The notes below the pieces were generated by a model. That model was not told the origin of the DNA, ran no database searches, and worked only from the letters and a program-made list of their open reading frames with translations. This document shows, in pieces, positions 20,201-22,720 of a stretch of DNA of 64,000 nucleotides. The translations under genes and the position numbers were made by a program. Source of the stretch: Gavia stellata (lineage: Eukaryota > Chordata > Aves > Gaviiformes > Gaviidae); NCBI RefSeq assembly GCF_030936135.1, contig NW_026777143.1, positions 38,715 to 102,714 on the forward strand, given 5' to 3'. Position 1 is the first letter of the stretch; every line of letters starts with the position of its first letter.

Positions 20201-22720
20201 TTGTCCTTCTGGGACCACGGAGAGAATCGGCAGCCACAGCTGAGGGATTTGGGACGGGAGCACGGCAAAGTGGCGGAGCAGATTTGCCCCACCGCAGACT
20301 CACCCCCTCCCTTCTTCCCCCAGGAAACATCAACATCTGCCTCATGGGCGACCCCGGCGTGGCTAAGTCGCAGCTCCTGTCCTACATCGACCGGCTGGCG
20401 CCCCGCAGTGAGTACTGGGCTCCTGGGGGTGGAGGGTGTCTGCGCCCCCCACCCCTCACCCCGCCGCTCCCCTCTGCCCCCAGGCCAGTACACGACAGGC
20501 CGGGGCTCCTCGGGCGTGGGGCTGACGGCGGCCGTGCTGCGGGACCCGCTGACGGGGGAGCTGGCGCTGGAGGGGGGTGCACTGGTGCTGGCCGACCGGG
20601 GCGTCTGCTGCATCGACGAGTTCGACAAGATGCTGGAGGCCGACCGCACGGCCATCCACGAGGTGATGGAGCAGCAGAGCATCTCCATCGCCAAGGCGGG
20701 CGTGCTGGCCACCCTCAACGCCCGCTGCGCCATCCTGGCCGCCGCCAACCCCGCCTACGGCCGCTACAACCCCAAGCGCAGCCTGGAGCACAACATCCAG
20801 CTGCCCGCCGCCCTCCTCTCCCGCTTTGACCTGCTCTGGCTCATCCAGGACCGCCCTGACCGCGACAATGACCTGCGGTGAGCGGGGGGAGCAGCGGGGA
20901 CAGCTGAGGGGTGCCCTGGGGCGGGCGTGGGGCTGGGGGGAAGGCTGGGAGCTGTGGGGTGAGCGTTGGGTGCTGGGGGGGTGCGGGGGAGTCCATGGGG
21001 CATGTGAGGGGCTGGGCTGGAAGCCATGGGGCTGGGCTGGAGGGAGCGCGGGACCCACACGAGAGCCATGAGGCTGGGCTGGTAGCCATGGGGCAGCCCC
21101 GGACCCGCTGCCAGCCCCTCTCTGCCCCACAGCCTGGCCCAGCACATCACCTACGTGCACCAGCACAGCCGCCAGCCCCCCTGCTCCTTCCAGCAGCTCG
21201 ACATGAAGCTCATGAGGTGAGAGAGGCTGCAAGGGGCTGCTGGCGCTGGCCCTGTCCCCGTGTCCCCCTGTCCCCGCTGTCCCCTCACCCTGTCCCTCCC
21301 CCAGGCGCTACATCGCCATGTGCAAGCGGAAGCAGCCAGTGGTGCCGGAGGCTTTGGCCGACTACATCACAGCCGCCTACGTGGAGATGCGGAAGGAGGC
21401 CTGGGCCAGCAAGGACACGACCTACACCTCAGCGCGCACCTTACTGGGCATCCTCCGCCTGGCCACCGCCCTGGTGAGCCCCGGCGTGGGCAGGGACGGG
21501 AGGGAGCGATGCCTGCGGCAGAGCGGGACCCACAGAGCTGGGCAGGAGCCAGAGGGGCCCCGCGGGGCAGGACCAGGCAGAAGACGAGCTAAAGCGGGCC
21601 GCACGGAGCCAGGCCAGACCCAGAGGGGTCGGCTTGGGCTGAGAGAGTGTCCCTGTCCCCCCCAACGTGTCCCCGTCCTCCGCGAGCCCCAGGGGCCCCA
21701 AAGTGCTGTTTGTGCAGGTAGTGTGTCTGCAGTGTCTACTGCCAAGGCAGCACTTCCAGAGCCCCCGGGGCATGACCAGCGCAGGGCCGGTGGCCCCTGG
21801 TGTCCCCTCCTGTCCCCCTCCTGTCCTCTGTCCCTTCCTGGGGCACGGCCAGCTCCAGACTGCCTGCAGGGCCCCCCCTCTACCCTCATCCCTTCCTGGG
21901 GCTGTCTGGCAGCACCCCACCAGGACAGGGGAAGTGCACGGAGGGGCTTCCAGCGGTCTCAGGGGGCACCCCGGTGTAGGCAGGAGCATTGGGGGCCGCC
22001 GGGTGATGTCAGAGGGTGCCGGGGGTGCGCTGGGAGGGGTCCCAGTTGGTGCTAACCCCCCCTGCGCCCGCAGGCCCGGCTGCGGCTGGTGGATGTGGTG
22101 GAGAAAGAGGATGTGAACGAGGCCATGAGGCTTATGGAGATGTCAAAGGACTCGTTGCTGGGGGACAAGGGACAGCAGAGCCGGTGAGCAGTGGACACGG
22201 GTGGCAGCCTTGGGGGAGCCCTGACCCTGTCCCCTTGTCCCTGGGGTCGCCATGGGGCGGGTAGGGAGGACGTGGCACAGCCAGGGGCACTCTGTTCCCT
22301 GCCCATGCCCCCTGGGAGGAGGTTGCAGTGCCGGGGTGCTTGGTCACGTCCCCAGTCCTGACCCCGTCCCTGCATCCCAAGGGAGGGGGGGGCAGTGCCA
22401 GGGGCATCCTGTCCTCTCCTTTCCCCATCTGACCCTGTCCCCAAGTCCCCAGGGTGGCTGGGGAGGAGGTGACAATGCCAGGGTCCCCCTTGACTTGCCT
22501 CATGTCCCTCCTCAGGGTGCAGCGTCCGTCCGATGCCATCTTCGCGGCGGTGCGGGAGCTGGCGGGGGGCCGGGACCGGGCCGTGCCCTACGCCGAGGCC
22601 CTGCAGCGCTGCCTGGCCAAGGGCTTCACCCCCGCCCAGGTCCAGGCCGCACTCCAGGAGTACGAGGAGCTCAACGTGCTGCAGGTCAACCCCGCCCGCA
22701 CCTGCATCACCTTCGTCTGA
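17225..22720 (+). CDS. MCM7: MCM7, replicative helicase subunit
   Basis: MCM7 is one of six subunits of the MCM2-7 helicase that licenses and unwinds replication origins. Fifteen exons from ATG 17225 (start context ccgccATGg) to TGA 22720 join in phase to 720 residues (human 719). Visible landmarks: zinc-binding cysteines C184, C187, C206 and C211; Walker A GDPGVAKS at 381-388; Walker B around CIDEFD at 443-448; arginine finger SRFD at 513-516; C-terminal winged helix ending ITFV-stop. The intron after residue ...FRQIAQ has a GC donor (19610-19611) instead of GT. The intron at 21474-22073 holds a miR-93-like hairpin. The E2F site upstream predicts S-phase expression. The gene lies between AP4M1 and COPS6 as in human. 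No frame break was found. Confidence 0.98.
17270..17575. repeat. G4-prone GGGGACC/GGGGATC microsatellite in MCM7 intron 1
   Basis: About 40 copies of a 7-8 bp unit (ggggacc, ggggatc, gggaatc) on the plus strand begin some 15 bp after the first donor. Runs of three to four G every 7-8 bp fit the G-quadruplex pattern on the non-template strand. Confidence 0.9.
21689..21768 (+). ncRNA. MIR93: miR-93-like microRNA hairpin in an MCM7 intron
   Basis: The segment folds by eye into a hairpin. The 5p arm at 21699-21721 has the miR-17-family seed AAAGTGC and, from memory of human miR-93-5p, differs from it by one base (T for C at position 13). The 3p arm at 21738-21759 contains CAGCACTT, pairing with AAGTGCTG of the 5p arm, and the flanks aggggcccc / gagcccccgg extend the stem. 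The host intron corresponds to the human MCM7 intron that carries miR-106b, miR-93 and miR-25. I could not recognise miR-106b or miR-25 in the same intron. It is probably processed from the MCM7 transcript. Confidence 0.88.

Follow-up and report, generated by a model that had tools for sequence, protein, structure and literature searches.

In human, the miR-106b/93/25 cluster sits in intron 13 of MCM7, and the locus described here raises the question of which part of it, if any, is left in a bird. Gardner et al. (2015; PMC4378963) surveyed 48 bird genomes; according to that paper, the cluster was not found in birds, crocodiles and turtles and was ranked among genuine losses, and mammals and amphibians possess it. 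We analyzed a stretch of 64 kb of Gavia stellata DNA (the window), the end of a contig of 102,714 bases (C939) that is not placed on any chromosome. An earlier note, made from the letters of the window, had proposed a miR-93-like hairpin in an MCM7 intron. The human hairpin, mature miRNA and MCM7 sequences used in our comparisons were working versions, not database entries.

Host intron and gene neighborhood

The MCM7 exon matches (Table 1) span residues 11–719 of the human protein with no stop inside (tblastn) and flank the intron of the hairpin, and MCM7 is hence its host, as the earlier note had it. The first ten residues were not found by tblastn in the window, and a fifteenth match at 3683 was due to chance (E 0.76). 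For the last three exons, the best PDB match was MCM7 (E 6.4e-76). Assembly-wide, 17 matches to MCM7 exons were obtained. Only two of them, both on C939, were near identical; identity in the other 15 was 40–67%, a level that would be expected of other MCM genes. Downstream of the intron with the hairpin come two coding exons, which makes this intron the second to last, and number 13 if the first exon is counted.

AP4M1, MCM7 and COPS6 stand side by side in the window, an order that we take to be that of human chromosome 7. The runner-up match for AP4M1 was AP-2 mu (E 1.3e-9), and the COPS6 region carries JAB and MitMem_reg pieces. With its place in the second-to-last MCM7 intron and with AP4M1 and COPS6 adjacent, as in the human layout, the hairpin has the position of a mir-93 orthologue. 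Further genes are a STAG-domain gene at the left of the window, by its position presumably STAG3, and a beta-arrestin gene at 43.7–45.9 kb with beta-arrestin-2 as best match.

GC content ranges from 67 to 78% across the window (2-kb steps), and the contig is GC-rich and unplaced; the earlier note had assigned the locus to a genomic class in which assemblies easily miss MCM7. Tandem arrays are abundant (256 rows across the window), among them a 7-base unit in 41 copies at 17280–17572, just before the first MCM7 exon seen. They recall the intron repeat growth on dot chromosomes described in PMC12954441. To the left of the window, a peptide-like word starting MVFLNG is repeated in three reading frames, perhaps as a repeat family (C939 13948–14244, 18343–18477 and 22374–22574 (-)).

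Table 1. Features of the MCM7 locus (positions in the window).
Feature	Position	Strand	Basis or remark
mir-93 precursor hairpin (mir-17 family)	21689..21768	+	RF00051 66.3 bits; R2 52.4 bits; tree and compensatory pair
Predicted miR-93-5p, CAAAGTGCTGTTTGTGCAGGTAG, seed AAAGTGC 21700-21706	21699..21721	+	22/23 vs human miR-93-5p; ends inferred from human
Predicted miR-93-3p arm	21738..21759	+	17/22 vs human miR-93-3p; ends inferred
CNNC word ~17 nt beyond 3p cut	21777..21780	+	weak evidence: DNA C-rich
MCM7 second-to-last intron, GT...AG, 600 nt	21474..22073	+	exon matches end 21473, resume 22074
MCM7, 14 coding-exon matches	17620..22717	+	tblastn with human MCM7 (719 aa)
COPS6, convergent with MCM7	23205..26324	-	C-terminal 45 aa resemble COP9 signalosome subunit 6, E 3.3e-26
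AP4M1 (partial exons), in divergent orientation to MCM7	13595..15437	-	AP-4 mu-1 best, E 3.2e-25

Detection and fold of the hairpin

With Rfam release 15, RF00051 (mir-17) at 21689–21768 was the sole RNA family above cut-off in the 64-kb window. The match covers the full model (positions 1–80 of 80) and scores 66.3 bits (gathering cut-off 49.5, E 4.7e-14), which places the hairpin in the mir-17 family. It was recovered as well by a mir-17 covariance model (R2) for which six hairpins of the family, none of them a mir-93, had been used. The family seed AAAGTGC lies at the start of the 5p arm; taken alone, this word is at chance level (three in the window, reached by 24 of 100 shuffles), and it is the full hairpin that is informative.

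The stretch 21680–21780 (101 nt) folds with −46.6 kcal/mol (z −2.90, equalled by 2 of 200 shuffles). Among 52 overlapping 85-nt windows along the intron, starting from 21475, the lowest z, −2.96, falls on that of the hairpin. Stability alone is not distinctive, since two other intron stretches also fold well, namely 21925–22009, second lowest among these windows with z −2.61, and 21560–21640, which is strong for its composition (z −2.67, 1 of 200 shuffles as stable). Only 21689–21768, among the hairpins of the 600-nt intron, scores as a miRNA family with Rfam, R2 or a mir-25/92 covariance model that includes human mir-92b (R1). The hairpin, its miR-17-family seed and its complementary 3p arm, all remarked in the earlier note, are thus in place, with a stable fold and a covariance-model match.

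The minimum fold of the 80 nt is weaker than that of human mir-93 (−34.5 vs −43.8 kcal/mol). In the longer fold of 21680–21780, the lower stem extends beyond the usual 11 bp, which could blur Drosha cutting. CNNC words near the position of the one in Table 1 aid processing in human and are common in animal primary miRNAs.

Relationship to mir-93

Compared with human mir-93, the hairpin is identical at 63 of 80 bases without a gap; human mir-106b, 17, 20a, 20b and 106a each required gaps and gave 49–51 identities. A tree built from 13 hairpins, of which six belong to this genome and seven to human, placed it with human mir-93 (support 0.951), its nearest relative among the paralogues. Identity is highest in the 3' flank (9/9) and in the 5p arm (22/23), which indeed is one base off human miR-93-5p as had been remarked before; it is lower in the 3p arm (17/22), the 5' flank (7/10) and the loop (8/16). 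Of the 17 columns that differ, 12 are unpaired and five lie in stems of the two-sequence consensus fold. These five touch four pairs, all of which still pair. At 21711/21744, a C-G pair has become U-A, with the C to U change at position 13 of the bird 5p balanced by a G to A change in the 3p arm. The pattern of substitutions is that of a hairpin held by structural selection, though two sequences cannot prove selection.

Judged from sequence, then, the hairpin belongs to the mir-17 family and is nearest to mir-93, with arms and seed retained. With human mir-93 in MCM7 intron 13, it has in common the seed, nearly all of the 5p bases, the ungapped length, the outer stem, the host gene and the intron; half of the loop bases have changed. 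On contigs C1 and C14, this genome also carries mir-17~92 and mir-106a~363 clusters, which share with the MCM7 copy the mir-17 family and, in most members, the AAAGTGC seed. In contrast to the MCM7 copy, which stands alone, each of them has several members together with mir-19 and mir-92 hairpins.

Search of the intron for miR-106b and miR-25

In the human cluster, mir-106b and mir-25 lie beside mir-93, whereas in the bird intron neither is recognizable. The intron is contiguous and contains no N. The miR-25/92 seed ATTGCAC is absent from the plus strand of the whole window. Its 22 matches are all on the minus strand at 53365–54760, apparently inside a repeat, where 1.86 would be expected window-wide. 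Between 15000 and 30000, Rfam listed 15 matches at E values up to 5, of which only the hairpin and its reverse strand belong to the mir-17 or mir-92 families. With filters off, R2 found nothing above 4.4 bits in 21400–22100 besides the hairpin and its reverse strand (13.8 bits). R1 peaked at 10.5 bits in the same stretch, again on the opposite strand of this hairpin; its plus-strand maximum was 8.2 bits. By seed and by model match, the two hairpins that would make up a mir-106b~25 cluster together with mir-93 are hence not present. miR-106b and miR-25 are absent from the intron, as the earlier note had suggested, and seed, Rfam, R1 and R2 agree on this point.

Several stretches were considered as traces of the two neighbors. 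The earlier note had seen a reminder of miR-106b in the word 'taaagcgggc' near 21590; this found no support, as the upstream stretch that aligns best to mir-106b is a different one and its score is itself reached by 95 of 300 shuffles, and the word is most likely there by chance. The well-folding stretch 21560–21640 owes its stability to a strong stem at 21607–21640, beyond this word, and no miRNA family fits it. miR-25 would be expected near 21893 if the spacing were what we take to be that of human. A long hairpin at 21892–21967 is unremarkable (62 of 200 shuffles as stable, z −0.34) and lacks ATTGCAC, 21934–21970 scored 6.1 bits with R1, and the downstream alignment to mir-25 was at shuffle level (score reached by 205 of 300). 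At the 3' end of the intron, 22017–22073 aligns to mir-106b, and 13 of 300 shuffles score as high; with the models, this end gave at most 8.2 bits (R1, 22025–22074) and 2.0 bits (R2, 22031–22064). As a putative mir-106b remnant, it is unproven. In the wider range 16500–24000, R1 with filters off listed 58 matches up to E 10, none of which passes with default filters. The best (17.2 bits, 19616–19678 (-)) lies in another part of MCM7 and has no seed.

Search of the assembly

The assembly (1,320,717,556 bases in 1185 contigs) represents one individual. Among the candidates scored, RF00051 exceeded its cut-off at six places, two on C1, three on C14 and one in the MCM7 intron, and RF00464 did so at two mir-92 places; scoring covered 57 of 440,972 first-look candidates for RF00051 and 57 of 131,825 for RF00464. 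Nowhere in the assembly did a miR-25 20-mer occur exactly or with a single mismatch. Four copies had two mismatches, two of them being mir-92a, and 70 places were found with up to three, against 81 for a backward control. The corresponding miR-106b 20-mer gave 278 places with up to three mismatches, whereas the control gave 98; word composition probably accounts for the surplus. Eight of these 278 places were examined as loci, and five one-mismatch words gave no hairpin with Rfam (E 0.01) or R2 (E 1). Absence of miR-106b and miR-25 from the genome is thus likely, though the search was not exhaustive.

A mir-92b-like hairpin was observed on C33 (L011 1496–1582; G000:C33:3042515-3042596), with 75 of 87 bases as in human mir-92b. 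It obtained only 22.2 bits with the Rfam mir-92 model (cut-off 47), and such a GC-rich miRNA would escape a survey based on cut-offs. Its 59.2 bits with R1 are not an independent control, since that model contains human mir-92b. A 22-base near-copy of the miR-93 5p arm on C1 (L001 1501–1522; G000:C1:39321893-39321914) is unlikely by chance in 1.3 Gb; as a miRNA it was rejected, having no Rfam family, no R2 match and no hairpin.

Discussion

Our analyses very probably identify a bird orthologue of mir-93, an intronic miRNA gene in MCM7 whose cluster was trimmed to one member in this lineage. The hairpin would be transcribed within MCM7 and, as part of that transcript, would be made when replication genes switch on, as established miRNA biology suggests. 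Drosha and Dicer would excise it from the intron and free a duplex, from which the 5p strand would load into Argonaute and repress targets with 3' UTRs matching the AAAGUGC seed. It would act alongside the other mir-17-family copies of the genome on C1 and C14. As five more hairpins of the mir-17 family and two of mir-92 exceed their cut-offs in the genome, redundancy could make up for losing mir-106b and mir-25.

It is improbable that the hairpin is a dead relic in which the family signal is inherited and processing is gone. The weaker fold and the changes in loop and 3p arm would agree with decay, but the intact seed, the almost complete 5p arm and the preservation of every altered stem pair, one by a two-sided change, argue against it, and no other part of the intron has stayed recognizable in this way. 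Even less credible, to the point of being nearly negligible, is a convergent or retroposed hairpin of mir-17/20 type inserted into the intron. The genome does hold other hairpins of the family as possible sources; the outer stem GGGGC...GAGCCCCCGG and the ungapped length, however, are those of mir-93 and not of the C1 and C14 copies, the intron is the same as for human mir-93, and the tree opposes such an origin.

Whether the two neighbors might be present in the bird, diverged, moved or lost in assembly, bears on the trimming of the cluster; we consider this unlikely, albeit less so than a dead hairpin. A study of zebra finch forebrain (PMC3118218) attributed reads and a TaqMan assay to tgu-miR-25; if this attribution is right, miR-25 may persist in at least some birds. 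The study identified its reads, however, by aligning them to mature miRNAs of human, mouse and chicken, so that mir-92-family reads could have been included. Hidden copies would also be compatible with the small share of first-look candidates scored, with the low Rfam score of the apparent mir-92b and, for miR-106b, with the alignment at the intron's 3' end. Against them stand the gapless intron, its plus strand devoid of miR-25 or miR-106b seeds other than that of the hairpin, the lack of further hairpins with R1 and R2 even with filters off, the miR-25 20-mer count at control level, and the one-mismatch miR-106b words that form no hairpin.

The MCM7 copy occupies the locus of cluster II, one of those that Gardner et al. 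(2015; PMC4378963) list as 'missing' in birds and that their survey did not find in crocodiles and turtles either. Here, one of three members is found, above a cut-off of the type used in that survey. As the hairpin easily clears today's cut-off, missing sequence rather than model sensitivity is likely why mir-93 was missed; a GC-rich contig that is hard to assemble would explain how the survivor escaped. True losses occur as well: Hron et al. (2026; PMC12954441) show with long reads that many genes are truly lost from bird dot chromosomes, and a word search of its main text gave no mention of MCM7 or miRNAs. Missing data and true loss are each plausible for the cluster, and this locus shows both, with one member hidden and two that appear lost. 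No report of miR-93 in any bird was found in our searches of the open-licence PMC literature, and an entry in miRBase or MirGeneDB may exist. Three candidate reports were set aside: 'novel-gga-miR-25' (PMC9693605) is a novel-miRNA number, PMC5788541 mentions miR-93 from cancer work only, and PMC9008718 mentions miR-106b/25 from mouse only.

The preferred reading, a cluster whittled from three hairpins to one in the lineage of this bird, requires three members as the ancestral state. The earlier note had likewise suggested a cluster that shrank to one: the lone miR-93 stands, while the three-member ancestry rests on the statement in PMC4378963 about mammals and amphibians rather than on a comparison of reptile or bird genomes. 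With one member surviving in a bird, the loss published there becomes a partial one. It also makes testable whether miRNAs reported absent from birds are truly gone or are located in sequence that older assemblies lacked. Moreover, the locus is a natural example of a cell-cycle miRNA cluster cut from three members to one, where the MCM7 coupling of miR-93 is separable from miR-25 and miR-106b. More tentatively, and with some doubt, we may extend this to all birds: these would have kept miR-93 alone, on GC-rich microchromosome contigs, and the reported loss would be a stepwise trimming in which the mir-92-type and one mir-17-type member were lost and MCM7-coupled miR-93 was kept under selection. 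If so, the same blind spot would hide other GC-rich miRNAs, for example, the mir-92b-like hairpin on C33.

Two further observations concern the assembly. Three alpha-type globin genes lie together on C18, the adult-type one matching alpha-A hemoglobin chains in the PDB, ranked behind six fused constructs with two matches each; alpha-A is a name in use for bird globins, and we accordingly regard the genome as avian. C1 has beta globins near its start as well as the mir-17~92 cluster, and C6 has a lysozyme-like exon, a distribution that hints at a split chromosome 1.
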